From assembly GCA_029582155.1 (NCBI GenBank), contig CM055896.1:32002109-32066108 (forward strand): 64,000 bases of DNA, read 5' to 3'. A model generated the notes under the pieces. It had not been told where the DNA came from. It worked only from the letters and a program-made list of their open reading frames with translations, and did not search any database. Every line of letters begins with the position of its first letter. The stretch's first letter is position 1. The position numbers and the translations under genes are program-made. Source of the stretch: Panopea generosa. Its lineage: Eukaryota > Mollusca > Bivalvia > Adapedonta > Hiatellidae. This document shows, piece after piece, positions 3,003 through 54,300 of this stretch.

Positions 3003-3228
3003 GTATATAGGAGAAAATATTCGTTTACTCTTTGATGTAATAGATTTTACTAATGAAACAAATATTCCGGCATGTCTGGTTTTTGCAGATTTTGAAAAAG
3101 CGTTTGATAGCTTAGATCATGATTTTATGAAAAAAACTTTAGCAGCTTTTAATTTTGGTAATTCTTTTATACAGTGGATAACATTATTCTAAAATGATAG
3201 TCAAAGTTGTATTTATAACAATGGACAT

Positions 3229-5057: not shown

Positions 5058-6504
5058 GAATAATTCATTAACGCTTATCTACTCTAAGCTATAAGTGTTT
5101 TATGTGTATAAGACATGTTAGCTGCAGTAGTAGTCCCTGACAGAGATGGGCTTATTATAATGTGAATGTCTGATGTGCATTACATTGTAACTTTTGCATG
5201 ATATGAATTAATATAAAGTCGAATAAGAAGTTAAAGCAAAGAATAACTCCGAATTACTTAATGCACAAGCGCAAATCGACATTAGTTTGTACTGCGTTCT
5301 TTAGTTTGTGCTAATTTATTGTCAAAAAAAGCTTAGAGATGATATAAAACGCTCTTGAGTCTGCTTCAAGGTCAGAGCCATTACTGGATGTTTTGGAGAC
5401 ATCGGACAATGCTGAGGATCGAACTTTTGGCCATTACGCAATCGCCTGCACTGCCACCCCGCTTATAGCACATACATCTGCTTTCTCTGTTTTGTTGTGG
5501 GCAGGTCGTAACCAAACGTACTTTTTAATTTTCTTTCGTCTTGCACTTAGTCTAATTCATATCAACTTCCTGGATGTGAATGATTGCGCATGTGATATAT
5601 AAATGTCGTATAATCTCAAGGTGCCATATCTGTATCTGATGATGACTTAACTCAACATAAAATATCACATTATAATACATTTATTGTACTCCAATATGTG
5701 CTCAATTTCAAAGGCATCCCCATCGTTGTCGTTATGATTAGAATTGTTAAATTCCAACAATTCCTCAAACTATCTATTGCATTTTCTCTTCTCGAGGCAC
5801 TCCGTTAGCCAACAGATATTTGATGTATTTCATTATCAATGTATTCATGTAACTATTTTCAAAGTGAAGTGTATAGACATCCAGGAGATAACCGTATTTA
5901 TATATAAAGTGGCGCTTGTTGTAAAGACTTCATACGATCCTCAACTAATTCTGCAACGTTTTTTACATTTTCGTAGTCTGAAATATAGTTTTTTTAGTTG
6001 TCTACACTTAAAAATGAAAATGAAAACAATTCGCTCGTTTGCAGGAATAATCATTGTTATGTTTCCTCACAGTCCAAATAATAATTTGCATGTGTCACTA
6101 TTACATCAATTTTAACCGAAACTAACCTGTCATTTTCTTTAATCAGAGTTATCAAGACATTTTTTTCATTTATCCACCGAGCGTATTAATATTAAATAAT
6201 ATTTAAGAGTTTACTTGTGTTTTGTTTACATATTCTTGAGTCTTGGGTATGCCCCGAACGAGTATTTATATCTGTTTATTTTATAATCATCAATTTTATT
6301 TACGTTTTATGTTTGCAGGGGTTTGTTGCGTCTTAAGATTTCACAAAAACGTATCGTTATAATAGTCCCCACATACATGTGTAAATACACACAACGCTTA
6401 AAGCAAACACACACACGTCAGAGAACGCAATCACGAATTTTACTTCCTTTATGATCAATATACCACACGAAATTTAAATTAAAGCAGTGTCGTATTTGTT
6501 AATT
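5058..6504. other. Upstream non-coding stretch
   Basis: AT-rich DNA between the LINE and the first candidate exon. Apart from the SINE at 5333-5462 I recognise nothing. Open frames at 5393-5602 and 5744-6115 have no protein-like composition, and the first lies on the SINE. The promoter of the receptor gene would be expected here or further upstream, but no convincing TATA box or initiator could be singled out. Confidence 0.5.
5333..5462 (-). mobile_element. tRNA-derived SINE, family A (old copy)
   Basis: Read on the minus strand, it starts with a tRNA-like head (gggtggcagtgcaggcgat, then a degenerate B box from ggatcgaac) and continues into a body matching the copies at 7565-7722, 9745-9900 and 23797-23955 (cgctcttgagtctgctt on the plus strand). 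This is the most diverged of the four. Confidence 0.55.
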
Positions 6505-6616
6505 ATGTGGGAAAAGAAAGAAGCTGCACATCTATTAAATACTGCAATTGACGAAACAATTATAGTGTTTATTTCGACCGTTGTTATAATGTGGATTTTG
6601 GAAGGTCGCTATACCT
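6505..6616 (+). CDS. Candidate exon 1: start codon and signal peptide
   Basis: ATG 6505 follows an in-frame TAA at 6475. It opens 37 codons with a hydrophobic run ([15 protein letters not shown]) suited to a signal peptide or anchor, ending at a strong donor (T|GTAAGT) after 6616. The phase-1 donor fits the phase-1 acceptor of the EGF-like exon at 11475. No homology supports it, and a first exon upstream or elsewhere in the 4.9-kb gap is possible. Confidence 0.42.
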
Positions 6617-15200: not shown

Positions 15201-15251
<51 letters not shown>

Positions 15252-18311: not shown

Positions 18312-21300
18312 AGATAATTATTTGTGAATAACCAAGACATAAATGTACAGACCAGACTACGGCGAGTGCGCCTAGCTACAATGCAAACCATAGATACAAT
18401 ATCAAGGCCTCTGCCAAACCAATAAATTTGGTGTCGACCATGACTTATATATTATGGAATTACATGCAACACATCTGGACGGGGTGGACAAATTTACATA
18501 CATGAACTGGTAGCTTTATATGAGTAGGATCCAGTTAAGGATTCATGACTACTCACATGCTATATAAAAGACTGATTTGTAAATACGTTGGATCATATAG
18601 ATACAGTGAATTCATATATATTTAATTTCATAAAGGGAGATAATTAAATTCACAACAACGGAATTTACGATTTTTGAGATCTTTTCAGATGCTCATTCAC
18701 AATGCATGATATATATATGGAGATAATTATTTGTGAATAACCAAGAAGTAAACGTACAGACCAGACTACAGTGAGTGCGGCCAGCTACAATGCACAATAG
18801 AGGCCTCGTTCAGAATGGATTTTTTTATTGTGCTCTTTATGTGTAGTATTTTAGCATGATATATATGCTAAGTAAAACAGTGATTTAGATCTATCTTTGT
18901 TGTTTTTCTTTTATTAGTCTTTCCAAATAATATATTTAAGGAAAGAATTTGGCTTTTGGAAAGCAAACAAATCAAAGTTCGTATGACGTATCCGATTCCG
19001 TACCCGCATTAACGGTCGATGGCGTGATAGGAAATACTTTCATTGAATGTAGCGCTACAAAGCAACAAGACCAGCCATGGTGGAGTATTGACCTTGGCCA
19101 TATAATGAGTATACAAGCTGTACGAATTTCAACAAATACAGATGGTATGTATCACAAGTGTGTACATATGTTTCATAGATATTGCGTGGAAATTCAAAAT
19201 GGACATTCACATGTAAATGTCAATAATTTAATGATAACTTTTTCAGTAATATTAGTATTATGGTTCTAATCCTTTGGCATTAATCGCGGATATTTTAATA
19301 CACTACTTTTAAGAACAAACAGAAGAACAATTCGTAAATGGTAATAAAGAAAATTTAAAAACAAATACAGTACATGTATTAAAGCAGAATGCTAGTGAAT
19401 TTAAAAATAAAATTGTATTTAGATATAGGGATGTCATTTACTAATAAAAAAATATATATATTTTTATTACAAAAGAAAAATGCATGAGTGAAGTGATTCC
19501 AAGATACTTACAGCGAAATAAATACAGTTCTGTATTTCTAAATTATATTGAAACATTTTTGAGGATGCCCAAAGAAAGTTAATACCATTAACGTCGTTAG
19601 TCAATTTGATTATGTAGACTTCTGTAATGTTCATACGGTATATACGTTGTAGTTAAAAATATAATATGAACGCTTTGAACTGTCCTGTTGCATCGCTCAT
19701 ATAATTATAATATATAATGTTTCTTCAGACTGTTTTGCCATATTTACAGTAACTGTTATAATTTGCCTACTCCAGAAATTATTTTTATATCGATCCGAGG
19801 ATAATATTTACGAGATTTGATATTCATTTGCTGATGAAGATAACACAAGAATGAACTGATCAATATCTTTTTCTTTTTAATTGCGATGTCATCTTATTTG
19901 AATGACATGACTTTCAATGGAACCTAAAATGGAATATGGCGATACATGATACAACCTTGCCCATTATTCAAAATCAATGCAAAGTTGGGTGAACAAAACC
20001 GCCCAAGAAACACTGAAGCGCAGACACAGCAACCTTCTGACCAGAAATGAAGTGGCTTTTTATTTACATATTAAGATTATTATTAATTGTTATTTTCTTA
20101 ACAAACATAATATACCAACACAGAAAATAAGAACAATGTTTAGTAAGTCACAACAAAATATGTGACTAGATTTTTTTTTAATGTACCTTTATGTAAAACA
20201 TAGTTTATGTCTTATACCCAAAAGCTATGGTGAAAAGTTATGCATTATAATGTCTGGTTCGTTTTACGAATTGTGAAACATTCTAATAGTAAAATGGAAA
20301 TTGTAAAGGCTTCTTTGGTGATACAAGATACATCCATATGGCGATACATGATACAACTGTTTGGCGATACATGATATTACTATTTTGCGATACATGATAC
20401 ACCTATTTGGCGATACATGATACACATATTTGACGATGCATGTTACAACTATTTGGCGATACATGATCCTAATGTTTGGCGATTCATGATACACCTATCT
20501 GGCGATACATGATATACCTATTTTGCGATACATGATATACCTACTTGGCGATACATAATACACCTATTTGGCGATGCATTATACACATATTTGGCGATGC
20601 ATGATACAACTATTTGGCGATACATGATATACCTTTTTGGCGATGCATGATACACCTTTTGGGCGATATATTATACAACTATTGGGCGATACATGATATA
20701 CCTTTTTAAACTACATTCAGATGTTACGTCGACCTACATATACCCTTTCAGATAAACCCACAAGTCCTCTTATGCAATCACAGGGCAGACACATACTGCA
20801 ATTGATGAGATTTTAATTTTCGAACTACATGTATCTCTACTTCTGTACACTCGTTTGAAAACCATATGACAGTACAGAGAAATGTCAATTATCTGCGTGT
20901 GTTGTATAATACAATCTCTGTGATATATAATTTAAATATAGTATAATAATATAGTAAATATAGTATACGATAAAACTAATAAATTTATTGAAAATTATCC
21001 AGCTCATGCCAAATGATATAGATACATATTAAACTAATTAAACAACTTTAGATTAAAAGTAAATTTTCTTGAAAATTATTTTTGTTTTCATACAAGAATT
21101 GTCACCCTAATTACTATGTATTGTGTCATAACATTTTTCAGCAGGGTTATTGAACTTTCAATTGCAAGCAAGTAATGATTCAAGTCACACATTGATAACA
21201 GTCCATAATGATGCAGGAATGAATCCCCCTACAAGGAACATCACCTTATTAATACAAGCACGTTACCTGAGATTGTATAGTCCGGAACAAAATGTGAAGC

Positions 21301-30300: not shown

Positions 30301-33300
30301 GATCTTATTTTAACGCCTTGCATTTTTTCCACGTATTTTGTATAATTCTTGCTTTTTAATTTCTAGCAGTTCATGATTAAAAAAATGATCTTTCAAGTTT
30401 TTCAAGTCCTTTAAGTAGTGAATATTCATTGTTTTTTGGTGGTTTTTTTTTAAGGAATGAAGATAATTTAATTGTCTGACCCCTTATTTCAAAAAATAAT
30501 ATCTAACTGAAGCGTATCATTTTCAATGTCATTTATAGTTTTATCAGAAAGTTTATCCTTTTTAGCATGTTGTAATTTTATCTTTTCAATAGTTATTTGA
30601 ACATATTTATATATCTAATGTCTTTTAGCAGAGAATTATTCATTTTCCAGTATGAATAACCTTTATTGACTTTAATAAAATTTAATTTTAAAAGAATCAA
30701 AGAATGGTCAGTTTCATACCCTGGTAGCTATATCAGTAAGTACTTGCTGGAAGATCAAAAAGAAGTCTTATCTTGCTTTCTTATTAGTATTCTTTCGAAA
30801 CCATGTGTATTCTTTTTTTTCTAGATTCTGGTCTTTCCATTTTAAAAATAATTTGATGTTTTAAGAACATTGTAGCATTTCTATACTGATATACACCATT
30901 GTAGCTTGACCTCGTGTATTTTTGTTAACAAGATCTGCTTCAAACATAACTTTAAAACCCGTTAAGTTGTACTCTTTTGTTTAAATTTTAACGTTTAGTT
31001 TTTCCTAAAATTTACAAATGATGTTGATAAATAAAAAACTTAAACCTTTAAATACCATCTTCCGTGGCCTAATGGTTAAGTCGTCCGCCTCGGAAGCGGG
31101 AGTTTGAAGGAGCGAATCCCGGTGGAAGCACTTGAATTTTTACTGATGCGAACTGTTGCTAAGCCCAGCAGCTAGTTAAATTGAGTGGTATCGAATGTCT
31201 AACAGCCTGACGCCTGGCAACGATAGCTTTCGGGAAATAACTGTGTACAATATAAAGTTGCCTCATAAGCCAACTGTGGCTGGTCATTTCATGTAGGAGT
31301 GGTACTATAATAAAAGAAATACTTTATACACTTTTCACTTTTTTATAATAAATGTCAATAACATGTTTTTATCGTTTCTAACGATAGTAACGATATACGT
31401 GTGTAAATGATTGACACCGATGTGCTATGTTTAAAAAAGATACAATCAATCAGATATACATACTAAGGGACTGGTTGTAATAAATGCAAATACGTTTCAT
31501 AAGTATGTAAGTAGTTATTAATATCTACTATGACTTCATAAACATAGTGTAATAAGCAATAAAAATGATTTTAAAAAATCACTCACGGACGTTAACCATA
31601 TTGCATACTTACATGTACCATATGATTAAATTTATATTCATGCGACGTCAAAATACGAATCCTTTATTTAGAATGACCTTTGTTGTTTCAAAACGATTCC
31701 AAACAGCTCAAACAAAGTGATTTTAATGTGCTTAGTAGCATCAAACGTCTACAAACAATTTAGGTCTATATTTTCTAAATATGTATCTTTTTAAACTATT
31801 GTGGAAGCTGACACATATTTAAACATTTTAATATCGTTTGTTCCGATGATCGTTCACTTCTGTTTTATATTTGTACTGCACTTATTGTTATTATTTAAAC
31901 ATTCAGATTGTATATTAATGTACATGTGTGTTACCTGTTTGTTTTTTAATCTGCCGTTAGATATGAACATGTATGCTCTGTTTTCAATTATTGTTATTCA
32001 AATAGAACATTGTAGTTCAAAAATAATATTATACATTGTAAAAATCGTTTTAATCAATCCATATATTAACGATATTGAGTAGAAAATAATTGTTTTCATT
32101 TACAGCATGTACCAACGGAACGTGGGGTTACAATTGCATGAATACGTGTGGCAACTGTTTGATTGGCCCATGTGACAGATTTACTGGTTACTGTTCTAGT
32201 GGATGTCAGCCAGGATACAAACCGACACAAATATGTAACAATGGTATGTGTAGATTTACCCATTACAGTACAGTGCTTAGGCTAGATATATAATGTAGTT
32301 GACGTAGGAATCGTTTGTTTGTTTACACGATATATTCACAATACTATGTGATACTAGTTTCATTTCTTGTCCTTTTAGAATGTGATGCCGGTACCTATGG
32401 ACAAGACTGTTCGTCAAATTGCAGTGAACGATGTTTCGCTCCTCCAGACTGCAACAAAACGGATGGACATTGTGAGAGCTGTGTTTCAGGATGGAAAGGG
32501 AATTGGTGTGAACAGGGTAATTGTAAACAGAACACGTACTATAAATAAAAACATACTCTCATGTTGATGGATGTTTTTTGTTTGCCACTTACCCGTCATA
32601 AAAAGACAACGTTTTATTATAATTGCTATCAAATCGTTGCAACATAGTGCAATATGTCAATGTAAATTATGGGCATATTGTTTTACAAATGATGTAACAG
32701 ATAATTTTAACTTGCAAACATTTGTATAAGTTAAATACATACGATGGTAATCCATGAAATAAATTATTCAAACCCAACCTTATACAAATACATTTGTGAT
32801 ACACTATAAATTATATCAGTTCATAAAGTTTAGTTAAATAATTATCACATATATATATCATTGTCACACAATGTTGTGAGTAAAAATGTTGAAATAAATA
32901 AAGTTAAACAAATTCCAATAAAATGTATTACACATAGCTATAATAATAATATGTTCAAAGTTCACACACTATTTTCTTAACACACTGAATGATTAATACA
33001 GTCCTAATTATGAATGATAAACAAAGTCCTAATGGCGAAGGATTAATACAGTCCTAATGATAAAGGATTAATACAGTTCAAATGACTGAATGATAAACAC
33101 AGTCCTAATGATGAATGATAAACAAAGTCGTAATGATGAAGGATTAATACAGTTTTAATGAATAAATGATACCACAGTCCTAATGATGAATGATAAACAC
33201 AGTCCTAATGAATTAATAATTAACACAGTCATAATAATGAATGATTAACAAAGTCCTAATGATGAATGAGGAACAAAGTCCTAATGATGAAGGATTAATA

Positions 33301-36300
33301 CAGTTTAAATGAATAAATGATAAACACAGTTCTAATGAATAAATATTCACACAGTCATAATAATGAATGATTAACAAAATCCTAATGACTGAATGATTAA
33401 AACAGTGATCATGACTGAATGATTAAACAGTCCTAATAACTGAATGATTAATACAGTCTTAATGATGAATGATTAATACTGTCCTAATGATGAGGGATTA
33501 ATACAGTCCTATTACGAAGGATTAATACAATTCTAATGATGAATGATTAAAACTGTCCTAATGATGAGGGATTAATACAGTTCAAATGACTGAATGATAA
33601 ACACAGTCCTAATGATGAATGATAAACAAAGTCGTAATGATGAAGGATTAATACAGTTTTAATGAATAAATGATTTACACAGTCCTAATGATGAATGATA
33701 AATACAGTCCTAATGAATTAATAATTAACACAGTCATAATAATGAATGACTAACAAAGTTCTAATGATTAATGAGAAACAAAGTCCTAATGATGAAGGAT
33801 TAATACAGTTTAAATGAATAAATGATAAACACAGTTCTAATGAATAAATATTCACACGGTCATAATTATGAATGATTAACAAAGTCCTAATGACTGAATG
33901 ATTAAAACAGTGATCATGACTGAATGATTAAACAGTCCTAATAACTGAATGATTAATACAGTCTTAATGATGAATGATTAATACTGTCCTAATGATGAGG
34001 TATTAATACAGTCCTATTACGAAGGATTAATACAATCCTAATGATGAATGATTAAAACTGTCCTAATGATGAGGGATTAATACAGTTCTAATGACGAAGG
34101 ATTAACACAGTCCTAATGATGAATGATTAACACGGTCCTTATGACTAAATGATTAACAGAGTCGTGATGTTGAATGATTAACACAGTTGTCATGACTAAA
34201 TGATTAATACAGTCCTAATGATGAATGATAAACACAGTCCTAATGACTAAGTAATTAACACCGTTCTAATGATGAATGATAAACATAGTCCTAATGACTG
34301 AATGATTAAAACAGTTCTCATGACTGAATGATTATAACAGTCCTAATGACTGATAAGTTAACACAACCTAATGATGAATGATTAACACAGTCCTAATGTT
34401 GAATGATTAACACAGTTGTCATGACTCAATGCTTAACACAGTCCTAATGATGAATGATTAACACAGTCCTTATGACTAAATGATTAACAGAGTGCTAATG
34501 TTCAATGATTAACACAGTTGTCATGACTAAATTATTAATACAGTCCTAATGATACGTGATTAATACAGTCCTGATGATCAATGATAAATACAGTCCTAAT
34601 GACTAAATAATTAACACAGTCCTCACGATGAATGATTAACATAGTCCTAATGACTGAATGTTTAAAACAGTTCTCATGACTGAATGATTAACACAGTCGT
34701 AATGACTGAATGATGAACAAAGTTTTCTTGACTGAATGATATACAAAGTCCTAACGATGAATGATTAACATAGTCCTAATGACTGAATGTTTAAAACAGT
34801 TCACATGACTGAATGATTAACACAGTCGTAATGACTGAATGATTAACAGAGTTCTCTTGACTGAATGATTAACAAAGTCCTTATGACAGGATGTTTATTT
34901 AGAATGACCTTTGTTGTTTCAAAACGATTTCAAAAAGCTCAAAAAAAGTGATTTTAATATTACTTGGAATAATGATCTTCAGTGTTAATTTCTTGTTTAC
35001 AAAGCGTTTTACTGTTTAATGTTTCTTTGATGATTGGTTACAGAATGTGAAAATGGACGTTTTGGAGAGAATTGCATCCAGTTTTGTGGTCATTGCTTAC
35101 ATGGTACATGTGACAGAGTCTCCGGTAACTGTACCGGTGGTTGTATGGCGGGATACAAACATACAGCACGCTGTGTAGATGGTAAATTTAATGACAGCAA
35201 TACTAACATTTACTGTTATAAGTTTCTGCTAAAGTATGTTGATAGTCTAATGATAAACCACCATTGTCAAGACATTGTGATAATATATAAATGGTTCTGA
35301 TACTTATGATACATCTATGTTTCTTTGACAATTTGTTTTAATAAAACATTGTATCAAAATATAAAAGAGAACGCCAACTTAAGTAAATAAACATCGATAA
35401 CACATGATTTGTACGTATGCTGATCGTAATAGTGGTTCAAATTAACGTTTTTAATCTGATTTAATTTTAGACAAACACATCATTATCAAATCAAAAGCAA
35501 ACGGTCAATTTTAGTTTTTTACGCTTCAAGATCTTATTATATATTCATTTTTCATTAAAAGCTTGTTATTAATAATAAGTATAATGTCTTTAATTAAGCC
35601 AGCTCAAATAAGTATTGCATGTTTAAAACAAATGTAATTATAAATTATCATTGTAGAATGTATCAACGGGTCTTATGGAATGGACTGTGCAGGTAATTGT
35701 AGCGAAAACTGCCAAGATAAAACATACTGTAATAAAGCTGATGGACAATGTGAATGTAAGGAAGGATGGGAAGGCGAAAAGTGCAACCAAGGTAATCATT
35801 TAATTAATAGAGGCATATACGAGTAACTCAACAAATAAAAATCTTAGTTATCTATTCTAATTAGGAAATGAATAAGTATTTACCTGATGCACACTTCCTT
35901 CTTTATAATGATACTTTATTATTAGTGAGATCTCCATAGAATGGACGAAGAAGATTAAAAAAGACCATAACTCCCTCTTTTTATAACATTTTTTTTCTCA
36001 TAGTGTTTTGACTTTTGTAACATGACGTGGTATATCATAGTAACAATCGGTTCTTTATAAGCAAATGTCTGAAATTATGGATGTCTTTTAACCATTAAAT
36101 GTCACATACGCCATGCGGTAATACTTTATATATAACCTTATAAAGAAGAGCTTCGTTCAGCACCGTTAAACAGCAAACACGTTTAATGCCTGGTTAATCG
36201 CGTACTGTGTACTAATTTGAGGTTGAACCAGTGTCTACTAACATTAGCAAACATTTAACCGAACTGTACGGAGTACTACATCGAGTTTCACTCACAATAA

Positions 36301-39300
36301 CCTTGTTAAGAAACTATATAACAATGCAGGATTATACACTGATCTTAGTAGCATCAAACGTCTACAAACAATTTAGGTCTTTATTTTCTAAATATGTATC
36401 TTGTTAAACAATTGTGGAAGCTGACATATTTTTTCTCTTTAATATCGTTTGTTCCGATGATCGTTCACTTCTGTTTTATACTTGGATTGGACTTATTGTT
36501 ATTATTGAAACATTCAGATTGTATATTAATGTGCCTGTGTGGTACCTGTTTTTTTTTTTTAATCTGCCGTTAGATATAAACATGTATACTCTGTTTTCAA
36601 TTATTGTTATTCAAATAGAACATTGTAGTTCAAAAATAATATTATACATTGTAAAAATCGTTTTAATCAATCCATATATTAACGATATTGAGTAGAAAAA
36701 AATTGTTTTCATTTACAGCATGTACCAACGGAACGTGGGGTTACAATTGCATGAATACGTGTGGCAACTGTTTGATTGGCCCATGTGACAGATTTACTGG
36801 TTACTGTTCTAGTGGATGTCAGCCAGGATACAAACCGACACAAATATGTAACAATGGTATGTGTAGATTTACCCATTACAGTACAGTGCTTAGGCTAGAT
36901 ATATAATGTAGTTGACGTAGGAATCGTTTGTTTGTTTACACGATATATTCACAATACTATGTGATACTAGTTTCATTTCTTGTCATTTTAGAATGTGATG
37001 CCGGTACCTATGGACAAGACTGTTCGTCAAATTGCAGTGAACGATGTTTCGCTCCTCCAGACTGCAACAAAACGGATGGACATTGTGAGAGCTGTGTTTC
37101 AGGATGGAAAGGGAATTTGTGTGAACAGGGTAATTGTAAACAGAACACGTACTATATATAAAAACATACTCTCATGTTGATGGATGTTTTTTGTTTGCCA
37201 CTTACCCGTCATAAAAAGACAACGTTTTATTATAATTGCTATCAAATCGTTGCAACATAGTGCAATATGTCAATGTAGATAATGGGCATATTGTTTTACA
37301 AATGATGTAACAGATAATTTTAACTTGCAAACATTCGTATAATTTAAATACATACGATGGTAATCCATGAAATGAATTATTCAAACCCAACCTTATACAT
37401 ATACATTTGTGATACACTATAAATTATATCAGTTCATTATGTTTAGTTAAATAAGTATCACATATATATCATTGTCACACAATGTTGTGAGTAAAAATGT
37501 TAAAATAAATAAAGCTTCAACCAAATTGCTTATGCCGATATAGCGTATTACTCATAGCTATAATAATAATATGTTCAAAGTACACACACTATTTTCTTAA
37601 CACACTGAATGATTGATACAGTCTTAATGATGAATGATAAACAAAGTCCTAATGGCGCAGGATTAATACAGTCCTAATGATGGAGGATGAATACAGTTCA
37701 AATGACTGAATGATTAACGCAGTCCAAATGATGAATAATAAACAAAGTCCTAATGGCGAAGGATTAATACAGTCCTAATGATGAAGGATGAATACAGTTC
37801 AAATGACTGAATGATTAACACAGTCCTCATGATGAATGATAAACACAGTCCTAATGGCGAAGGATTAATACAGTCATAATAATGAATGATTAACACAGTC
37901 GTAATGGCGCAGGATTAATACAGTGCTAATGATGAAGGATGAATCCAGTTCAAATGACTGAATGATTAACACAGTCCAAATTATGAATAATAAACAAAGT
38001 CCTAATGGCGACGGATTAACACAGTCATAATGATGAATGATTGACAAAGTCCCAATAACTGAATGATTAAAACAGTGAGCATGACATAATGATTAACACA
38101 GTCCTAATGACTGAATGATTAACACAACCTAATGATGAATGATTAACACAGTCCTAATAACTGAATGATCAATACTGTGTAACAGTCTTAATGATGAATT
38201 AAGTAATACTGTCCTAATGATGAAGGATTAATACAGTCCTAATGATGAAGGATTAATACAGTCCTAATGATGAATGATTAACACAGTCCTCATGACTAAA
38301 TGATTAACACAGTCCTATTGATGAAGGATTAATACAGTCCTTACTATGAATGATAAACACAGTCCTAATGATGAATGATTAACACAGTTCTCATGACTGA
38401 ATGATTAACACAATTTTTTAATGATGAATGATAAAAACAGTCTTAATGAATAAATGATTAACACAGTCCTAATGATGAATAGTAAACACAGTCCTAATGA
38501 CTTAATAATTAATACAGTTCTTATGAGTGAATGATTTACACAGTCCTAACGATGAATGATTAACACTGTCCTAATGACTGAATAATTAATACAGTTCTTA
38601 TGACTGAATGATTAACACAGTCCTAATAATGAATGATTAACACAGTCCTAATGATGAATGATCAACACAGTCATAATGAGTGGATAATAATACAGTTCTC
38701 ATGACTGAATGATTAACACAGTCCTAATGATGAATGATAAACACAGTCCTAATGATGAATGATAAACACAGTCCTAATGACTGAATAATTAATAAAGTTC
38801 TTATGACTGAATAATTTACACAGTCCTAATGATGAATGATAAACACAGACCTTATGATGAATGATAAACACAGTCCTAATGACTAAATAACTAACACAGT
38901 CCTAATGATGAAGGATGAATACAGTTCAAATGACTGAATGATTAACACAGTCCAAATGATGAATAATAAACAAAGACCTAATGGCGACGGATTAACACAG
39001 TCATAATGATGAATGATTAACACAGTTCTCATGACTGAATGATTAACACAGTCTTAATGATAAATGAATATTACAGTCCTAATAAGAATGATAAACACAG
39101 TCCTAATGACTAAATAATTAACACAGTTTTAATGATGAATGATAAAAACAGTCTTAATGACTAAATGATTAACACAGTCCTAATGATGAATAGTAAACAC
39201 AGTCCTAATGACTGAATAATTAATACAGTTCTTATGACTGAATGATTAACACAGTCCTAATGATGAATGATAAACATAGTCCTAATGACTGAATAATTAA

Positions 39301-42300
39301 TACAGTTCTTGTCACTGAATGATTAACACAGTCCTAATAATGAATGATTAACACAGTCCTAATGATGAATGATAAACACAGTCCTAATGACTGAATAATT
39401 AATACAGTTCTCATGACTGAATGATTAACACAGTCCTAATGATGAATGATTAACATTGTCCTCATGACTGAATGATTAACACAGTCCTAATGAAAAATAA
39501 TTAACAAAGTTCTCATGACTGAAAGATTAATACAGTCCTAATGATGAATGATTAACACAATATTAATGAAGAATGATTAACACAGTCCTCATGACTGAAT
39601 GATAAACACAGTCCTAATGATGAATGATTAACACAGTCCTAATGAAGAATGATTAACACAGTTCTCATGACTGAATGATTAACACAGTCCTCTTGACTAA
39701 ATGATTAACACGGTCATAATGATGAATGATTCACACAGTTCTTATGACTGAATGATTAACACAACCTAATGATGAATGATTAACACAGTTCTAATGATGT
39801 ATGATTAACACAGTCCTCATGACTAAATGATTAACACAGTCCTAAAGATAAATGATTAACACAGTCCTAATGATAAATGATTAAAACAGTCCTAATTATG
39901 AATGATACACACAGTCCTAATGACTAAATAATTAAAACAGTCGTAATGGTGAATGATAAACATAGTCTAAAGGACTGAAAGATTTAAACAGTTCTCTTGA
40001 CTAAATGATTAATACAGTCCTAATGACTGAATGATCAACCCAGTTCTCATGACTGAATGATTTACACAGTCCTAATAACTGAATGATCAATACAGTCTTT
40101 ATGATGAATAAGTAATACTGTCCTTATGATGAAGGATTAATACAGTCCTGATGACGAAGGATTAGTACAGTCCTAATGATGAATGATTAACACAGTCCTC
40201 ATGACAAAATGATTAACACAGTCCTATTGATGAAGGATTAATACAGTCTTAACTATGAATGATTAACACAGTCCTAATGATGAATGATTAACACAGTCCT
40301 CATGACTAAATGATTAACACAGTCCAATTGATGAAGGATTAATACAGTCCTTACTATAATTGATTAACACAGTCATAATGACGAATGATTAACACAGTTC
40401 AAATGGCTGAATGATTAATACAGTTCTTATGATAAATGTTTATTACAGTCCTAATAAGAATGATAAACACAGTCCTAATGACTAAATAATTAACACAGTT
40501 TTAATGATGACTGATAAAAACAGTCTTAATGACTGAATAATTAATACAGTTCTTATGACTGAATGATTTACACAGTCCTAACGATGAATGATTAACACAG
40601 TCCTAATGACTGAATAATTAATACAGTTCTTATGACTGAATGATTAACACAGTCCTAATAATGAATGATAAACACAGTCCTAATGACTGAATAATAATAC
40701 AGTTCTCATGACTGAATGATTAACACAGTCCTAATGATGAATGATAAACACAGTCCTAATGATGTATGATAAACACAGTCCTAATGACTGAATAATTAAT
40801 ACAGTTCTTCTGACTGAATGATTAACACAGTCCTAATGATGCATGATAAACACAGTCCTAATGACTAAATAACTAAGACAGTCCTAATGATGAATGATTA
40901 ACATTGTCCTAATGACTGAATGATTAACACAGTCCTAATGAAAAATAATTAGCACAGTTCTCATGACTGAACGATTAATACAGTCCTAATGATGAATGAT
41001 TAACACAATATTAATGAAGAATGATTAACACAGTCCTCATGACTGAATGATAAACACAGTCCTAATGATGAATGATTAACACAGTCCTAATGAAGAATGA
41101 TTAACACAGTTCTCATGACTGAATGATTAACACAGTCCTCATGACTAAATGTTTAACACGGTCCTAATGATGAATGATTCACACAGTTCTTATGACTGAA
41201 TGATTAACACAACCTAATGATGAATGATTAACACAGTTCTAATGATGTATGATTAACACAGTCCTCATGACTAAATGATTAATTCAGTCCTGAAGATAAA
41301 TGATTAACACAGTCCTAATGATAAATGATTAATACAGTCCTAATTATGAATGATAAACACAGTCCTAATGACTAAATAATTAAAACAGTGGTAAAGGTGA
41401 ATGATAAACATAGTCTTAAGGACTGAATGATTTTAACAGTTCTCTTGACTAAATGATTAATACAGTCCTAATGACTGAATGATCAACACAGTTCTCATGA
41501 CTGAATGATAAACACAACATAATGATGAATGATTAACACAGTCCTAATAACTGAATGATCAATACAGTCTTAATGATGAATTAGTAATACTGTCCTTATG
41601 ATGAAGGATTAATACAGTCCTAATGACGAAGGATTAATACAGTCCTAATGATGAATGATTAACACAGTCCTCATGACAAAATGATTAACACAGTCCTATT
41701 GATGAAGGATTAATACAGTCTTACCTATGAATAATTAACACAGTCCTAATGATGAATGATTAACACAGTCCTCATGACTAAATGATTAACACAGTCCTAT
41801 TGATGAAGGATTAATACAGTCCTTACTCTGAATGATTAACACAGTCATAATGATGAATGATTAACACAGTTCTCATGACTGAATGATTAACACAGTCCTA
41901 ATGATAAATGATTATTACAGTCCTAATAAGAATGATAAACACAGTCCTAATGACTAAATAATTAACACTGTTTTAATGATGAATGATAAGAACAGTCTTA
42001 ATGACTAAATGAATAACACAGTCCTAATGATGAATAGTTAACACAGTCCTAATGACTGAATAAATAATACAGTTCTTATGACTGAATGATTAACACAGTC
42101 CTAATGATGAATGATAAACACAGTCCTAATGACTGAATAATTAATACAGTTCAAATGATTGAATGATTAACACAGTCCTAATAATGAATGATTAACACAG
42201 TCCTAATGATGAATGATAAACACAGTCCTAATGACTGAATAATTAGTACAGTTCTCATGACTGAATGGTTAACACAGTCCTAATGATGAATGATTAACAC

Positions 42301-45300
42301 AGTCCTAATGATGAATGATAAACACAGTCCTAATGACTGAATAATTAATACAGTTCTTATGACTGAACGATTAACACAGTCCTAATGATGAATGATAAAC
42401 ACAGTCCTAATGACTAAATAACTAACACAGTCCTAATAATGAATGATTAACATTGTCCTAATGACTGAATGATTAACACAGTCCTAATGAAAAATAATTA
42501 ACACAGTTCTCATGACTGAACGATTAATACAGTCCTAATGATGAATGATTAACACAATATTAATGATGGATGATTAACACAGTCCTCATGACTGAATGAT
42601 AAACACGGTCCTAATCATGAATGATTAACACAGTCCTAATGAAGAATGATTAACACAGTTCTCATGACTGAATGATTAACACAGTCCTCATGACTAAATG
42701 ATTAACACGGTCCTAATGTTGAATGATTCACACAGTTCTTATGACTGAATGATTAACACAACCTAATGATGAATGATTAACACAGTCCTAATGATGTATG
42801 ATTAACACAGTCCTCATGACTAAATGATTAACACAGTCCTAATGATAAATGATAAATACAGTCCTAATTATGAATGATAAACACAGTCCTAATGACTAAA
42901 TAATAAAAACAGTCGTAATGGTGAATGATAAACATAGTTTTAAGGACTGAATGATTTAAACAGTTCTCTTGACTTAATGATTAATACAGTCCTAATGACT
43001 GAATGATCAACACAGTTCTCATGACTGAATGATTTACACAGTCCTAATGACTAAATGATTAACACAACCTCATGATGAATGATTAACACAGTCCTAATGA
43101 TGAATGATATTTATATACGCATAAACGACAAGCTGATGTTTACAACTTGAAACAACATCGAATAACCAAACGATTGGTAAAAAGTGAACAGTCTGAAGCG
43201 ATTGGTATTTTCCATGCATGTTGGCTTGTCGACCTGAACCATTTTAAGACCAGAGAGACGTTACGAACTTACTGGCACAGTCAAAGACCGCTAAAGAAAG
43301 GGACATCCACATGTTACAACAAGGAGACTGGGTGCAACAATTCGCAGGTTTCAACGAAGAGATCGCTTCCGGCCGCCAGCCGAGCGTGAAGATGGACATA
43401 GGCAGGCACGACTAAATATTCATTTTTCGGGCAACATGTTTAAATTTTATTTGTAAATTAATTGTTAAATGGGCTAAAACTGACACAACACATGTATATA
43501 CTGCTGGAATAACCTCAAGTATTTCTTTCATTAAAAAAACGTCTATCAAAAAGCTGATTTGAGCGAACGAGCTTCATATATTTTGTCATGAGGGCATATT
43601 TTGTCACATAGAGTCAGGATTTATGGGTCATCCGAATGACGCGCAGCAGTTCAATTTGATAACAAACATTGGTGGCAATGAAGTAACATTCCCGGACGAA
43701 TATGTGTTATTGACAGATAGAATCTACCCCAAATAGGCACCCCTCAGTGACACCATTCACAACGGCACAGATCAATAGACGCGCTAGAATTGTAGGAAAA
43801 TGAAGAATGTGATACAAAAAGTACAGGGTAACAGAGGAATAGATGGACTTAGGAGCTATAAATCTGTATGTTCTATATGGCGTCAGTAAAGGGCAGGAAG
43901 AGTTTTGTAGATATGCTGCGCCAGGGCTATAAGAAGCAAACGGTTACAGTTGGTGTATTGATTAAATTGACACATATTTATCATTGTTGTCTAGAAAAAA
44001 TCCCTCGGTTTCGGCCGGAGTAAATAATACTTGTACATTACCATTAACATTCCCATGAACGCGGCCAAGTTATATTTATAATGTGTATTCTTTTACAGGT
44101 GAATAGTCAAGTTAATTAAAGAGTTATACAGGCTCGCATGAAGTGATGAATATGCATGAAGTGATGAATTTGCTACATATATACTGAATTCTGAAAGTGT
44201 TTCAATTCTTGAAATTTGAAATATATTATTTACTTGTTTATCTATGTATATTATAAGTGATATTACGAAAATAAATTCTGCATTAAGTTTCAGAGTTGTC
44301 AGCCTCTCCAGATTCACCGGTTACAGCACTAGTAGGTGGTGTGGTCGCTGCCATAGTTGTTATTGTTGCCGTTCTTGTGGTACTACTGTTTCTTAGATAT
44401 CGCCGAAATAATGGGTAAACTAATTTATAGATGTGATCAGTAGTCTTTTTAAAATTTTAAAATGTTATTGTCTTAAAATGAAATGAAAAAAATATTGAAA
44501 ATAATAATTGTAGTCTGACAATTACTAATGCAAATGCAAAGTTAAAACTATGTCTTTCAACCATGTAGAAATTTACAAATAAGTTATATAAGCATATCAA
44601 TAATACGTGCATTTTATCTTATTTGTGAAGAAAACAATTTTACAAACAATAATAACAGTTATTTACCAAATTATTAATTTGAAAAATTTCCGTAATCTTT
44701 TTGCTTATAGAGTCTTAGAAATGGAGACTAGGATGCTCTTTATTTTCTATATAAACTATATAGAATGTGAACATGTTTTCAAACGATTGTAGATTGTATT
44801 TGTCCTTGCTTTGAATCGTTTACAGGAACCAAAAACAATCGACTATTTTTTCGGGAGACCTAACAGATGTGTCGCGTGATGTCTCTGAGACTGATATTGA
44901 CGCAGTTGAACCAGCTCGATCTAAACCATCTACTAGTAAAAGAGAAAACATCTACATGAACTCCGATGTGTTTATCTCTCTTCGTAATACATACGGTACT
45001 ATTTAATATGTTTATACACTATTTTACTCAAAGGGTCAGTTTGAATATGAAGCTCACAGTTAGAAACATTGCGTTTGCTTATCTCCTTGATCACTGTTAT
45101 GACAAATGACACTATCGATTCCGTCCTTCCGTCAGTAATTACTTGATAATAAATGACAAAAAGATCCTATTGGACACAAAGTGGCTTTAAGAAAGCATCC
45201 ATACTAACAGTGAAGCAGATAAGGTTTTAATGAATATGTTCATCAGAGCTGTGTTCCATGATTCAAAGGAGTCGTAATTATTAACAACATCAAGAATGTT

Positions 45301-45319
45301 GTTGTTGTTGTTGTTGTTT

Positions 45320-45368
<49 letters not shown>

Positions 45369-48300
45369 CGTTGTTGTATGGTGTTTTGCGCCGCTTTCAA
45401 CAATTTTTCAGCCATATCGCAACGGTGTGTACTTGAGACAGTTTTCTTAGCGCTGTCACAAAGGAGTATCATGCCCAGTCACATTATGCTGACACCGGGC
45501 CGACCAGACCTAGAACTTTCTTCTTAAGCCTGGAAGCTTCTAATACTATGTTTAAAGTCTTTGCTATGGCCCGGTCGGAGATCTAACCGAGCTTTTGTAG
45601 TTGTATAATATGTTTGCATATACGTGATATACATTTTATCATTTACTTTGATAATGAATAGTACATCGAGAGAAAACTGTTGAGTATTTTAACAGACACA
45701 GACAAGAATAAACCTGGGACAAGTATTATTAAGTCAGGTTTACAGTCGGATGTCGCTGTAGATGATAATGGTAACGATAGTGATTATTACAATACATCTG
45801 TGCAAAGGGACATTCCAAAGGGTGCGATACGGCTGTCAAACTTGAGGAAATATATCGGTGGTAATTCTTCACAAGACGACATCTTCCATGAACAGTTCAT
45901 TGTAAGTTAGCGTTTGGTATTTATAAAATGTACATGTACATCTATTTCACCACCCATATTCCCTCTTTATACATCTAACATGTATATGCCTAATGTATCC
46001 TTTTTTAGATGAGAAATATAAACATATTGTATTTCCATTTTTGAATTTTATACATGTTTTGTCTCATATTTTGTAATGACTAAATGTTATCACAGAAAGT
46101 ATATGAATATATTCGTGTCTGTTTATCTATGCAAATGTGTCGTTGAAATAAAATATGCTTCTGTACGACGAGTGATTGTTGCATTACAGTCACTACCTAA
46201 AGGTCTGATGCACCCGACCACTGTGGCGCTAAAACCTAGAAACAGACCAAAGAACAGATACAAGGAGCTATACGCATGTAAGTGTTTTACTAATGAATAT
46301 AACAAAGTAAAACGTTCTTATTAAAGTGGAAAGTCTAAATTGATATTACAATAGTTGTTTACACGGCATGAACATTATTTAATCACATATTATGCAAGTT
46401 TGCATAACGACAATTCACGTTTATTTAAGTAGATTCAATTTTAAATATATGCACATATTTATCAACATTTTCTTTTTTTATCAAATATTTCAAATAATCG
46501 TTTGCGAGATAAAAAAATGGTCTCAATTTTTAATCAATGCTATGCTTAACCTACATTGTGTGTTTAAACTAAATGAGAATACTTTATCTAGATGACCACT
46601 CGAGAGTTGTCTTACAACAAATACCTGGAATGCGAGACTCTGATTACATCAACGCTGCTTTTATCAATGTAAGGCTGTTAATCCTGTTTTAGATGTGTTT
46701 GAACTTAAATAGATACACTAGCTTAATGTGTATACCTTTTATATCATTGATGACATCGGTTTTCTTCATCGGACATCTTATTCATATAAATATATGTATA
46801 TAATAAGATATAGGAAAATGTCGAACTCTGTAATATTATAAATATGTATTGTAAATAAAGGCATTCCATAAGCTCATTGAGTCAAACACGTGATTTTTCT
46901 GGCTGTTTTTGAAATCGCCGTCTTAACCTATGGTAATAATATTAACTTGTATCTTAACTCTCACTCATATTTCTTACTGAATATTGATGGACCGAACATT
47001 CGCAAAACATGCTTATTTTATCAACATGAATTGGTATGTGAATATATTAAACACCGATGCTACTTCATATTAAGTAAGACCGTCTTGGTCATCTTGTTAT
47101 TTGTTATTTATGAACACATTATATCAAAGTATTTGTTTGCACTATCGGCGGTATCATTTCTCTTTAGGGATACAGCATGGAGAAAGCATACATTGCTGCA
47201 CAAGGTATTGCATCCGAATATTTTAAAAGCACAATTTATAAACACTTTCTGTAACAAATTTCGTAAAAAATAATACTTTAGAAGATTTTTAATGTTTATA
47301 TTTATTTTATATCTGTGCATGCTCCGATAAGTTCCTTATTGACAAAACAGAATAAATATACACTTTAATAAGTTACAACATTTGGATTTATTTTAATGTG
47401 TTGTTTTTGTTTATATATTGAATACAGTTATTTTAACATTTTCCAAACGAGAAAAGATTTAAATATGTTAAGGTCCCTTTGAATGTTGGTCAATTGTAAC
47501 CATTGCCACTATACATGTATCTAAAATTGTTTTCCAATGAAAATACTTGTTGCCTATATGTATGTTCACATAATTTCAAGATTCGTACTACTGTGTCATT
47601 GTACGCGTATTTGAATCAATAATGCATAATGAAATATCTATATTCTGTATACTTTTTTGAAATAGAAAAAAATGGAATATATCGAAATGTGTGTGTATCC
47701 TTATCCTGTTTTAATAGATCGTGCTTAGAAAAAAACAGAAGATTTTGTTTATTTTATATAGTTCAAAAATGGCATTCTGATTACCGTATAAAGTACAAAT
47801 ATCTTACTTTCGTTAAACAATGCAGTAGATTAATGTTAAACACATCTATTCTAACTATATAGTTGGTCGCATAACGCTTATTTGTTAATTTAAGAATTCC
47901 TTACATTTATTAATATGTTTTCATTTGATATGCTTTGCGTTTCAATTTGGACTCCAGGACCAAAGAAAGTTAATATTTTGGATTTCTGGAGGATGATTTG
48001 GGAGAAGGATGTTACTAAAATTGTCATGGTAACGAACGTTGTAGAAGAGGGAAAGGTAACACATTACTAACAACTACCTTATACAGTATTGAAAGTTATT
48101 GATATAATAATTAATGAAATATTAAGTAATTATCATAAATTTCAAGCGTGTGCTTTCGGTGTAATTACTATTGCAGTGTAGATGTTGGATAAATTAAGTA
48201 ATATATAACTTTGGGAGAAAGCACATAACGAATATAATGCAAATACCACTTAGTCTTGTCTTTGTATTAATATAGGAGAAATGTGACCAGTATTGGGACA

Positions 48301-51300
48301 GTGGTGAACCGATTTGTTATGACTCTTTGTTTGTATTGATATAGGATAAATGTGAGCAATATTGGAACAGTGGGGGACCGAATTGTTATGACTCCCTATC
48401 GGTAACAGTCACCTCCGAGGAAGTAATGGCAGAGTTCACCATCAGAACATTTAGTGTTGAATCGGTGAGTTGTAACGAAAACAGAATCACATGTGTAAAA
48501 GGGGAATAACTGTGTTGTTCTTATTAATTACTGAACAGGTATTCTAAGATTATGCAGTCAACACAATAAATATAAATTACTAAGTAATAATTTACAATTA
48601 AATGCTATGGTCCACAAAGCATTTTCAAATACAATGACTATTACTATTTTAAGATAAAATGCACAATCATATATGTACATATATGTCCATGAGGCAAATA
48701 AATTCAATTTCTAAAAAGTGCGATATTTCTTACATTATATATATAAAGACCAATCTGAAAACGAAACCTTTACATTTATGATATATGCTTAAATGCCATT
48801 TATAACACATAAAAATCATATTATATTATACTTGAATCCAGAATGAATCTGAGTAAAACGGTGATAGGTAATATGTCTTTAGACGACAGTGCCGTAGACC
48901 TCTCGGACATGGAGGACCTTATATATATAAACGCAATGGAAGCATTGAACGTGTTAACAAGCATTAAGGACACAAAACTACTAAAGATGTGATGTGTGTT
49001 CTCATGTTCATTTGTTCCTGGAAACCTTTCGATGAATGAGGAATCCAATGAAAACATAATTTTGGTAATAAAGATAAATCCAAATAAATATTCTGTTAAC
49101 GTTTCAGATACCACAGAACAAACAACGAACAATAACTCACTATCAGTTCACGGCATGGCCTGACAAAAGTATACCCAGTGGACACACAGGTCTGGTACAG
49201 TTCTGGTCCAAAGTTCGTATGGATGACAAGGAGTCAGCCCACCCTTGGCTTGTCCATTGCAGGTACATATCGTCTCTTTCATCTGTATGACCAGTGTGAC
49301 TGGCACTTCCTTGTAGTGTCATACCAAAACGAGATTCATTTGTTATTGTGTATATGAATGTCATCGTTCGTCGGGTTATAAAACGTCATTGTGGCCTGTC
49401 CTGTACTAATGCATGTAAACTACGAGTCATTCGTATCTATTGTTATACTGTCCTACTTGTCTGGTACATCGTTCAAACGAATCGAGTAGGTTGACGTTAT
49501 ATCTATGTTTCGTTTCATGATTAATATTATAGAAGTATTAGAAAACAGAATTATAAACCAAATACTTTACTGCATACTGCATGTACAAGCAACCTGATTA
49601 CATGTAACTACGTTTCCAGATTTGTTTTACTATAGAGAGGTATAACGCCCTTTTCAACATATTGTATATGGCAATCTGTTTAACTGGTGGAGAAAAAACA
49701 AACGACTCATGGACAGTGATCTGAGTAGATCAACCGCGCTCTCGCAAGTAAATGGAAAATATGCTTCAGTATTTTGACTGAACTTTACTCGAATCTTTGA
49801 ACGTAGTGGTGAGATGTTAATGATATTGGGCACAAGCGTAGTCTATCATAGAGGACAAAGTTGTGTTTCAGTTCCTTCTTTTTATATAATTTATCTGTAA
49901 TACAATGCCTCCTATGAGTACTGTTTCATTGCATTTAAAAGTTGATTATTACAGATGATATGGCCATGTCGTACAATCCTAGATTTTAGTGTTGATAGAA
50001 TTGCTCAAAAATCTTTACCCATAGAAACTTGGTGTATATCATTATTTTTATACATTTTGGAATATCATGGTACAAATACTACTATTAGGCATAATCATAA
50101 AATATGAGACAGTCAAAGTTATACCTCACTCTGTCTAGTGCTGGAGTAGGAAGGACTGGAACATTTATCGCCCTTGATATCCTGTATGATCAGGGTAGAC
50201 AACTCGAGTATGTGAACGTGAACCAGTGTGTTCGGGAACTGAGACAGCAACGTGTCAACATGGTTCAAACGCAGGTACGGTACTTTTATATATAACATGT
50301 AAGTTCTAAAGTAAAAATGATGTTTTTACCAAAGTGATATATGATAGGGTGTTAAGTGTTTATAATCCTGTATTAGTCGACACTATTTATACGGACACAC
50401 GAACTAATTAGCTTGTTAAAAATGCATACAATATACATTAAAAAATTTCATTATTAATAGATGAGATATGTTTACGAAGGATTATAAATATAAAGAAATA
50501 CATAATTGCATCATTTAGCTGCAGAAAAATATCAGTTACAATTTCTGGTTTAGCTATATTATTTGATGACGTCATGTATTAAAGCATCAAATGAATACAT
50601 TATATAACAAAATGGTAGTATGTAAAATACATGTAATAAAAATGGATATCAGTTAGGATTAGAATATTCAATTACTCGAGACCGTAGTAACTGTACATTT
50701 AACTAGGTTTGTAAAAAGCCCGTGAGATACCCGGTTGCAAGAACTTCGAGCTGATGTCTGAATATAGATTTATTGCATACCAAGAATGACTGCCTACACC
50801 CCTTCCACATGCATGTTCGACTCTACTCACGCTGTGACTTGACGTATAAACAAATGTGACGTTCTAATTTGCTGTTGTGGTAAAACAGTTTATAGGATAA
50901 ATTATTCAAGAAAACGAATCAGACAGGATTTTGTCGGTTTGGATAAGAAATGTCATTCCTAGAGATAACGACCAAACCGTTAACACTCGGTGCGAATTTT
51001 TCTATCAGAACCTCAAACCTATGAAATATTCTTACAATTTTGAAATGATAACCATAGAATGTATATTTCAAACTATCTAAAACAGAGTCAATATCGTTAT
51101 CTCCACGAGATCGTCTATGAGGCCCTGGTTTTACCCAGCCTGCAAATACGTTTATCTGATTTTGAAAACGAATATAGAAAACTGATAGAGATAGACAAGC
51201 AGACAGGAATGACATGTCTTATGTCCCAGTTTGAGGTAAGTGTCACTTGTTGCCTAATTGACGTAAGAAAGAAATACTAATTTTATGCTTTGAAACAATT

Positions 51301-54300
51301 TAATTTTAAGTATATAATTATCTTGTCGTAATATTCATCGGCATCGAAGTAATTATATATTGCACAACTGAACGGTTCGACGCTATATTACATTTCCCCA
51401 TCGGGATCCATTGTTAAGTTAATTTTCATTTTTCTATAAAAAAAAATGAAATCTGCAATATTTTTATTCTGTGCACATATAATATCTGCAAGTATAAACA
51501 GAACAAAGCAGTGATCTTGTGACCAAGTTTTTTTTAACATATCAACTTGCAGAAATAATATGCTAACAAACTGACCACGATATGATTTGTGTAAATCTCA
51601 TATCATTGCACTGGTAATTTTTTGGAAACAGGCTATTCCACAAATGATGGGAATAAATAATCCAATTCAATACAAGTTCTGAAAAAAAGAAATTTTATAT
51701 TTCTACTATTTGTACATGCATCTCCATCATGTCTACATGTAGATCCAAAGTATTTAATGGCAATGATAGTGCAGTTACACTTTAAGTATTTTACCTGACA
51801 CACACAAAGTGGTTAACTTGTTCCATAAATACGAACTTCAATTATACTTCTACAGATATATGATTATTAAAGGATTATATAACAAGTCGATATCATATAA
51901 CTATAACTGAATTTGAACAACACTTTTTGTAAATGTAAGCATGGTATTTAGTCTCTATCTTGCAATAAAATTAAGTTATTCCTAGCTATATTATTTAAGT
52001 ATGCTTGCAAAAAAAGATAAATATATAAATTAACTGAAGTCAAACAGGTATTGTTTTAATACATAATTTTGTAGTTCCATACATACATATTGTCCTTTAT
52101 GCAGATGCAAGAAGAGGTCGTCTATCTTTCCAAAAAAGATATTGATGAAAAAGAACATTCCGATGACGTTGATCTATACACTACGGCCAAACTACCCGAG
52201 AATAAAGTCAAGAACAGATACAACAATATCCTAGCGTGTAAGTTGAATTCACTAAAAAATACTTTGTTTTCGTGTTAACTAACTGGTTACATTTTAGACT
52301 TCATCAATAATTTATATTTGTTCTGTTAATCTTATCATTTGCATTGTTATATCAAATATCAATTAATAATGAACTCCATGTATAATTCATTGACCCTGTC
52401 TAACTAACGGCCTTATGGTAAGACCTGGAACAATATATTAGTGATTACGAAATTAAACAAATATAAAACTGTCATCGATTAAATAATTTCTTATTGAATC
52501 ATTAAGTATTGATTCTTGAATAGTATGATTATCATATGACCTTGGGTCAAATCATTCATTTATTTACATAACAGGTAAGCATTAAACAAGTTTATATTGG
52601 TCATTACTGAACAGTTTGTTTCATGAATGGCATTTATAACTACGTATATAGTTATATTTGAAATAAAAATTTACGCTATATAATAAAATAATACAATGTT
52701 ACCATGCGCTAGTTTTTAGTTTTGTATAGTATTTCCATTGTATTACTTGTATAACTAATGCTTTTAATAGCTGATGAATATCGAAGGTCCATCCCTAAAT
52801 GTTACTTCCTGGACGAAATAAACTGAAGTACGCTACAATTGGAAAGCAAAATACTTTGGGATCGTGATTAGAAATATAACAAAATTGCCATTAATATAAT
52901 TATTTCATGTTGAAATAGTTACTGATTATTGAACAGTAATATTTTCATACGGTCTTGGGTCATATGATTCATAAATTGACCTAACAGATAAACATACAAT
53001 TTGATACTGGTAGTTCCTGAACAGTTCGTTTCATGAACAGAATCAATAAATATACAAATGCAGGTTTGTAGTATATATGTATTTATTTTAATGTATTATT
53101 GATTTTGTAGAACTGTTACTTTTATTCTACAGCTGATAAATACCGACATTTTCTATCGACGCATGTTCCTGGATGTAACGATTATATCAACGCTGTTTAC
53201 ATACCAGTAAGTACGACCTGCAGTTGTTATGTATGTATTGTCGTAAAATAAATTGACGTCTTGACAATTCCATACGTTGAGATGTATCTAAGGAATGAAT
53301 ATATCTTATTCAAAATTCATTTGACTGAAATGAATCAAACTAACATATGATGTGATGTTTATTGGTATTGTGTATGATTGTTTGATAATGAAAACAATGT
53401 TTATTAGTTAGTTATTACACGTCATATTTTAATAATATCAATTTGGGAAGTAAATTATTAGTTCATTAAATATCTCAACCATTGGTTTTTTACATATATT
53501 TGCTAATGTTACATCGATTGTTTTGTTTAAACTATCATGATAATTATGTTTGATTACAGATTTATCATTATGTGTTAAATGATATAAATAATGATCCGAA
53601 AGAATTCTGGAAATCTATTGGTAAAATAGGCATACATAATAACAAGAAAAAGTGGATTCCAATGGAGGTTCTTCTGGATGATGGTAACTTGACTTCAGAT
53701 GTTAAGGATGTTTTAAGTAAATGGGAGAAAGATTATAGTAACCTTTATAACTCTACTATTGATTCCATAAGAACTAATGATCATAATAATGTTGGTAACA
53801 CGAATACTAGTTTTTTTTTGGATGAGCATATATCTATTCTAGAAGTAAAAAAAGCTATTGAAAATGCTAAAAAAGGTAAAGCACATGGTATAGATAAAAT
53901 ACCGGTGGATGTTCTTAAAAATGATACTTCGGTATACTTTTTACATGTTCTTTTTAATGTTTGTTTTAATAAAGGTTGTATTCCATCTTTATGGGGTAAA
54001 TCTATTATAAATCCTATACCTAAGTCAAGCTCCGCCGACCCAAAAGACCCACTCTCTTATAGGGGTATATCATTATCATCATCCATGTATAAATTGTATA
54101 GTTCTATATTGAATAATCGTCTATATATTTGGTCGGAAAATAATAATAAAATTGTTGACGAGCAGAATGGTTTTCGGAAAAAACGTAGCACAATAGACCA
54201 ACTTTCATCTCTAACAAATATTATAGATACTAGGAAAAAGCTTAAACGCTCTACATTCTGTGCTTTCATTGATTTTAAAAAAGCTTACGATTACATCAAT

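Follow-up and report, generated by a model that had tools for sequence, protein, structure and literature searches.

Receptor-type protein tyrosine phosphatases carry tandem catalytic domains, and the gene considered here, from the bivalve Panopea generosa, resembles them in that it matches a phosphatase at two sites, of which the first has the motif SAGVGRTG; it differs in having a lectin-like head and a stalk in which the number of EGF exons varies between paralogues. Symmetrical class 1-1 modules are known to be duplicated in tandem, or deleted, by recombination within introns (PMC3927616), and they share with the present ones the character of EGF exons with phase-1 introns, gained or lost in frame through intronic breakpoints. 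The present cluster is distinguished by the occurrence of several states side by side, by a minisatellite at the edge of the duplicated unit, and by an apparent homogenisation after duplication. A second point of comparison is the SpTransformer (Sp185/333) clusters of sea urchins, an immune effector family in which duplications, deletions and ectopic insertions of regions are described (PMC8634487). The likeness lies in clustered genes shaped by duplications, deletions and insertions, and no homology is claimed; the SpTransformer products are immune effectors, whereas the present genes are those of receptor phosphatases with no known immune role. The cluster is a good illustration of a known kind of process, and no description of it was among the papers listed by literature searches in which subscription papers were mostly out of reach.

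The window is the whole 64,000-bp stretch of DNA analysed (C3:32002109-32066108 in a 1.47-Gb, 39-contig assembly), and its gene is referred to as W. To judge from its predicted frames, W is probably a receptor tyrosine phosphatase gene with a lectin-like head, an EGF stalk and two phosphatase domains, presumably read as a single message; it lies in a cluster of tandem genes (Table 1).

Table 1. Coordinates of features in the window (position 1 is its first letter)
Feature	Position	Strand	Remarks
Lectin-like head frame	18940..19266	+	Open frame, fucolectin-like; PF22633 (NedA-like galactose-binding) above cut-off, PF00754 (F5/8 type C) below; exon limits not fixed
A	31663..31727	+	Intron piece, left edge of unit 1; left flank ancestral, common to S and X
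A-B deletion junction	31728..31731	+	Pair C (~1.38 kb) missing from unit 1
Block B, unit 1	31731..32983	+	Partner of 36344-37603
Homogenised tract (proposed)	31976..32664	+	Exons 10 and 11 and intron between; 4 substitutions/689 against unit 2
EGF exon 10	32106..32243	+	Class 1-1
EGF exon 11	32379..32516	+	Class 1-1; derived Trp (G at 32505)
Minisatellite array 1	32986..34886	+	25-bp repeat; right end cut by duplication junction
A'	34894..34958	+	Repeated intron piece opening unit 2; array-A' is the tandem-duplication junction
EGF exon 12	35044..35181	+	First of pair C
EGF exon 13	35657..35791	+	Second of pair C
Block B', unit 2	36344..37603	+	
EGF exon 14	36719..36856	+	
EGF exon 15	36992..37129	+	Ancestral Leu
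Minisatellite array 2	37604..43108	+	25-bp repeat
First tyrosine-phosphatase domain	49078..50292	+	Two open frames, the second with SAGVGRTG
Second tyrosine-phosphatase domain	58162..59364	+	Two open frames

Besides the head frame listed in Table 1, the frame at 14674 matched both PF22633 and PF00754 below cut-off, and that at 21132 matched neither. Downstream, PF00102 scored above cut-off in four of the five frames scanned (49078, 50101, 58162 and 59161; 51044 gave nothing), and the tandem arrangement of the tyrosine phosphatase domains is that of the receptor type. The Pfam scan of EGF exons covered exons 10 and 11 alone (exon numbers 10-15 follow the initial annotation), and the EGF models stayed under cut-off for both, exon 11 reaching 16.5 bits with EGF_laminin (cut-off 21) and exon 10 giving no match; the EGF label is suggested by the pattern and spacing of the cysteines and the mutual similarity of the exons. 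No Rfam family reached its gathering threshold in the window.

The repeated block

The exon pairs 10/11 and 14/15 had initially been annotated as a very recent, in-phase duplication of 4.6 kb. Here this doubled EGF pair is called B, its copies in units 1 and 2 being W1 and W2; C is the EGF pair at 35044-35791, and A is a small intron piece. Self-comparison of the window, run with both minisatellite arrays masked, aligns the two B blocks at 95.6% identity, with 41 substitutions and 5 indels. The near identity of the exon pairs is real, since 32106-32516 and 36719-37129 are separated by one substitution only (G/T at 32505/37118, Trp/Leu), and the two copies are indeed in phase: each of the six EGF exons found between 31000 and 37700 has an open frame, splice signals AG and GT, and class 1-1 phase. 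The length of 4.6 kb could not be upheld. The distance of 4613 bp is the spacing of the two B copies, the common block amounts to ~1.26 kb plus the start of the 25-bp minisatellite, and 34959-36343, which contains pair C, has no counterpart in unit 1. A second anchor is A, which matches A' at 95.4%, A' lying directly after array 1.

Paralogues and junctions

A search of the same genome with the exon pair gave 28 matches, including both window copies, all at C3 28.9-32.4 Mb and so within 3.5 Mb. Eleven loci (W, P, Q, R, S, T, U, V, X, Y and Z) were compared over stretches of 10 to 74 kb; P lies at 31.64 Mb, 390 kb upstream of the window, and Q at 32.115 Mb, 80 kb downstream. Tandem arrays with a period of 24-26 bp and a length above 150 bp are present in three of the eleven (W, P and Q), and in the stretches examined of R, S, T, U, V, X, Y and Z neither such an array nor a second unit was found. 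S and X have the full single series A, C, B; U and Z match part of A, followed by C (in Z its first exon only) and then B; V has C then B, with A itself unmatched; in R and T, A is joined directly to B; and Y has only part of B in the stretch examined. The result is a graded series of EGF modules, from 1 to 8 open exons at one position among the 11 loci, in which many states can be seen at once and the junctions can still be read.

Array 1 (1.9 kb; array 2 is 5.5 kb) runs straight into A' (34886/34894), and the identical array-A' junction, together with the doubled unit, is found in P (in two places) and in Q, while at this breakpoint S and X carry instead the ancestral intron left of A. Four bases, GAAT, are common to both sides of the join. 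The earlier suggestion that the array took part in the exchange is borne out by this junction at the array's end and its recurrence in P and Q. The A-B breakpoints of W are also those of Q and R, W being off by one base; those of T differ, and T has lost pair C independently, at an ATTT match. The class 1-1 exons thus have the marks of duplication: same-phase flanking introns, a single-copy state in relatives and an identifiable junction.

A long in-register alignment can be drawn across the arrays (31731-34886 on 36344-39493, 86.7% overall), the arrays being repetitive; taken segment by segment, the in-register match holds only over the first 150 bp (92%), a stretch that a shift of one register fits equally. 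Since register is kept for ~150 bp at best, this homology was dropped as a means of placing the right-hand breakpoint, and the array-A' junction was used instead.

Uneven identity and relations among copies

Intron and flanks had been described as matching almost base for base. This is true of the central 689 bp of block B, in which W1 and W2 differ at 4 positions, but not of the flanks, which differ by 6-7% (18/242 upstream and 19/319 downstream; these regional counts come from an alignment slightly unlike that giving 41 substitutions and 5 indels). None of 20,000 permutations yielded a 600-bp stretch as poor in differences as that observed, the shuffles being scanned every 10 bases and the real data every base. 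At non-coding sites, W1 and W2 differ at 3 of 417 positions inside the tract against 37 of 561 outside it (Fisher 8e-7), yet the intron of the tract is unconstrained, differing from the second copy of Q (Q2) at 17/137 positions (12%) and from R at 29/136 (21%). The tract of excess identity therefore takes in unconstrained sequence. The recent event here would be the sameness of the central 0.69 kb, for which gene conversion between paralogous B copies appears to be the best explanation.

The downstream flank tells a different story from the tract. In it W1 is nearer to copy 1 of P and Q (W1-P1 5/319, W1-Q1 14/319) than to its own W2; W1 pairs with P1 and W2 with P2 (W2-P2 1/328), and two tested trees joining W1 and W2 were rejected (AU 1.7e-94 and 7.5e-12). 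At 17 unit-specific sites of this flank Q1 goes with W1/P1 at 14 and with W2/P2 at 3, and a 5-taxon tree places it on the W2/P2 side of the W1/P1 branch (bootstrap 80). Given this placement, dating by Q with the downstream tree was dropped as ambiguous, and the age argument from Q is drawn from the common junction and the doubled structure.

Within the tract W1 is nearer W2 (4/689) than P1 (13/689), and the trees ((W1,P1),(W2,P2)) and ((W1,(W2,P2)),P1) fit equally (AU 0.51 and 0.49). From 31976 to 32404, W1, W2 and P2 are set against P1 at 13 sites and the units are split at 2, the corresponding numbers for 32405-32985 being 4 and 19 (Fisher 3.7e-5); the pattern of P1 against the rest could be due either to W2-type sequence copied into W1 or to foreign sequence entering P1. 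P itself shows a weaker contrast, with P1-P2 differences at 18/689 in the tract, 10/244 upstream and 21/320 downstream. The upstream flank is not sorted by unit: 3 of its sites are unit-specific, while W1 and W2 have 7 private sites each. Its divergence is therefore due in part to later patches, and the units can be dated by the downstream flank alone. W1 differs from R at 12/244 positions upstream but at 110/687 in the tract, from which it follows that block B is mixed, its exon part and its upstream intron having different histories.

The coding difference between the pairs is, as first noticed, a single one, but its direction is the opposite of the Trp to Leu then proposed. Trp (G) is confined to W1 and P1, and Leu (T) is found in W2, P2, Q1, Q2, R, S, T, U and V (X, Y and Z being uninformative); Leu is thus ancestral and Trp derived.

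Origin of the doubled unit

The account that we favour, with a probability of about 0.8, is an older duplication of an A-C-B-array block, loss of C from unit 1, and later homogenisation of pair B by gene conversion. The ancestral stalk would have consisted of one unit: A, EGF pair C and EGF pair B. In the lineage leading to W, P and Q, the 25-bp minisatellite would have come to lie after pair B, and the A-C-B-array block would have been duplicated in tandem through a join, at GAAT, from inside the array to just left of A; the junction is observed, and the mechanism is what we infer from it. Unit 1 would have lost pair C by a 1.38-kb deletion common to Q and R, and the identity pattern suggests a later homogenisation of the two B pairs over ~0.7 kb. 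Because all the exons here are class 1-1, every gain or loss with intronic breakpoints keeps the frame. Since the doubled unit and its junction recur in P and Q, the duplication is best taken to predate these genes, and this, together with the rejection of the downstream trees joining W1 and W2, removes the ground for calling it very recent. The two modules said to have been gained by the ectodomain are correct as a number (six EGF exons against four in S), but the likely route is a gain of four followed by a loss of two. The window pair is probably one case of a wider in-frame reshuffling of EGF modules in the gene cluster, and this one gene family shows how exons, taken alone, can make homogenisation pass for recent duplication.

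R has the A-B deletion but no array or second unit in the 20 kb examined, and unit 1 may have come from an R-like gene by exchange, not by loss of C in place. It is accordingly possible, if rather less probable than the account given above, that W is a fusion produced by unequal exchange between an R/Q-like gene (A-B, without C) and a P-like gene (A-C-B-array). Such an origin is partly compatible with the favoured account, and the odds of the two overlap. It would account for the left edge of unit 1 with no need for C to have been lost there, and it accords with the A-B breakpoints common with R and with the mosaic make-up of W: 31000-31774 is 97% like Q, the sequence from 43109 on is ~99.5% like P, and the 5' half (the 10-30 kb part) is, among the matches listed, only 79-93% like P. 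P, however, is itself doubled, and its unit 1 has lost C in a different way of its own; array 1, moreover, is 98.9% identical between W and P, and the doubling therefore predates such a fusion.

A very recent single duplication within W, whose flanks happened to diverge faster, is improbable. The near identity of the exons and of the intron between them is what it would predict, but the doubled structure and its junction are common to P and Q, the downstream-flank trees joining the window copies are rejected, and the clustering of differences outside the central 0.69 kb was matched in none of the permutations. An assembly artefact, in which collapsed or falsely duplicated haplotypes had created the second copy or the P gene, is just as unlikely. 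The region is certainly difficult to assemble, P and W being 99.5% identical over 12.4 kb and other blocks of the cluster ~99% alike; yet the W copies differ by the substitutions and indels counted above and adjoin arrays of different length, P and Q repeat the structure with deletions of their own, and the 5' halves of P and W show the much lower identity just given for the matches listed. Selection keeping both EGF modules alike, for which the position of the exons in the identical stretch might speak, is the least credible of all and was rejected, because the introns of the tract are as alike as the exons though unconstrained, so that gene conversion explains the identity and selection on the exons does not.

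Head, phosphatase domains and the receptor cluster

Diversifying selection on the lectin-like head was not seen, dN being below dS in all six head comparisons of W; four of these concern the first head exon, compared with two places in P (a stop being present in one stretch) and two in Q, and the other two concern the second, compared with P and with Q. For the first phosphatase domain, W against Q gave dN 0.008-0.024 and dS 0.115-0.213; for the second the contrast is weaker (dN 0.045-0.061, dS 0.065-0.094), with a stop in one Q stretch. In the stalk EGF exons at 21867 and 22775 dN is about equal to dS against P, and for 22775 likewise against S. Since P and Q were the only other loci in which head and phosphatase exons were compared, the notion of a cluster of receptors of this kind is extrapolated from W, P and Q. 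A further lectin-like head exon lies downstream of the window, at window-coordinate 68943-69221, with a protein 74% alike to that of 18931-19176, and perhaps belongs to the next gene.

It is tempting, though decidedly speculative, to regard the 3.5-Mb cluster as a receptor repertoire in which EGF stalks are continually rebuilt by class 1-1 units added, dropped and homogenised between genes, with dispersed minisatellites as break-and-join points and with stalks of different length in different individuals, which might serve to recognise microbes or other individuals. Should individuals indeed also differ in stalk length, this cluster would lend itself well to direct measurement of the gain and loss of exons.

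Other copies and repeats in the cluster

From 43109 to 72355, W matches P at 99.2-99.6% in blocks, the exceptions being a block of 193 bp at 96.4% and two insertions carried by W, and the match extends to P 31.6815 Mb. Upstream of P, 4 kb at 31.5685 Mb are 99.4% like 31.9229 Mb; downstream, 31.695 Mb is 99% like 32.266 Mb, with no match beside W among the matches listed (40 of 1,945 candidates, the probe containing a dispersed repeat). As far as such comparisons go, the cluster looks like a patchwork of recent segmental copies. At window 36141-36640, W and P differ by 4-5% within a stretch otherwise ~0.4% different, and this island is probably another exchange patch.

About 2.6 kb at window 53590-56220, with two long overlapping open frames, is found in W but not at the corresponding site in P; by eye the frames are those of a putative reverse transcriptase, and since the insert is missing in P it is probably younger than the W/P copy. 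Also absent in P is a stretch of ~295 bp at window 45244-45539, with a TGT repeat inside; 45373-45588 resembles 8520-8759 (67%).

Another 25-bp array, at window 13081-13302, measures 0.2 kb in W and ~13.9 kb in P (P 2904-16822), a large difference in length between sister genes. The 25-bp minisatellite occurs also at C6:61.57-61.71 Mb, C6:21.48 Mb and C3:89.14 Mb; at the last of these the similarity to the window continues for 55-100 bp to the left of the array (76-80%), a hint that the array is carried by a dispersed element.

A 2324-bp unit containing a single EGF exon is present in gene Y (C3:32374902-32384201) in four tandem copies that are 98.7-99.5% alike, and this makes Y a better candidate than the window pair for very recent amplification of an EGF exon. 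Among the matches listed (150 of 792 candidates), EGF exon matches ~2.19 kb apart form three runs of four, at C3:30.888-30.894, 31.099-31.105 and 32.516-32.523 Mb, which suggests that other genes of the cluster also contain exons in tandem series.
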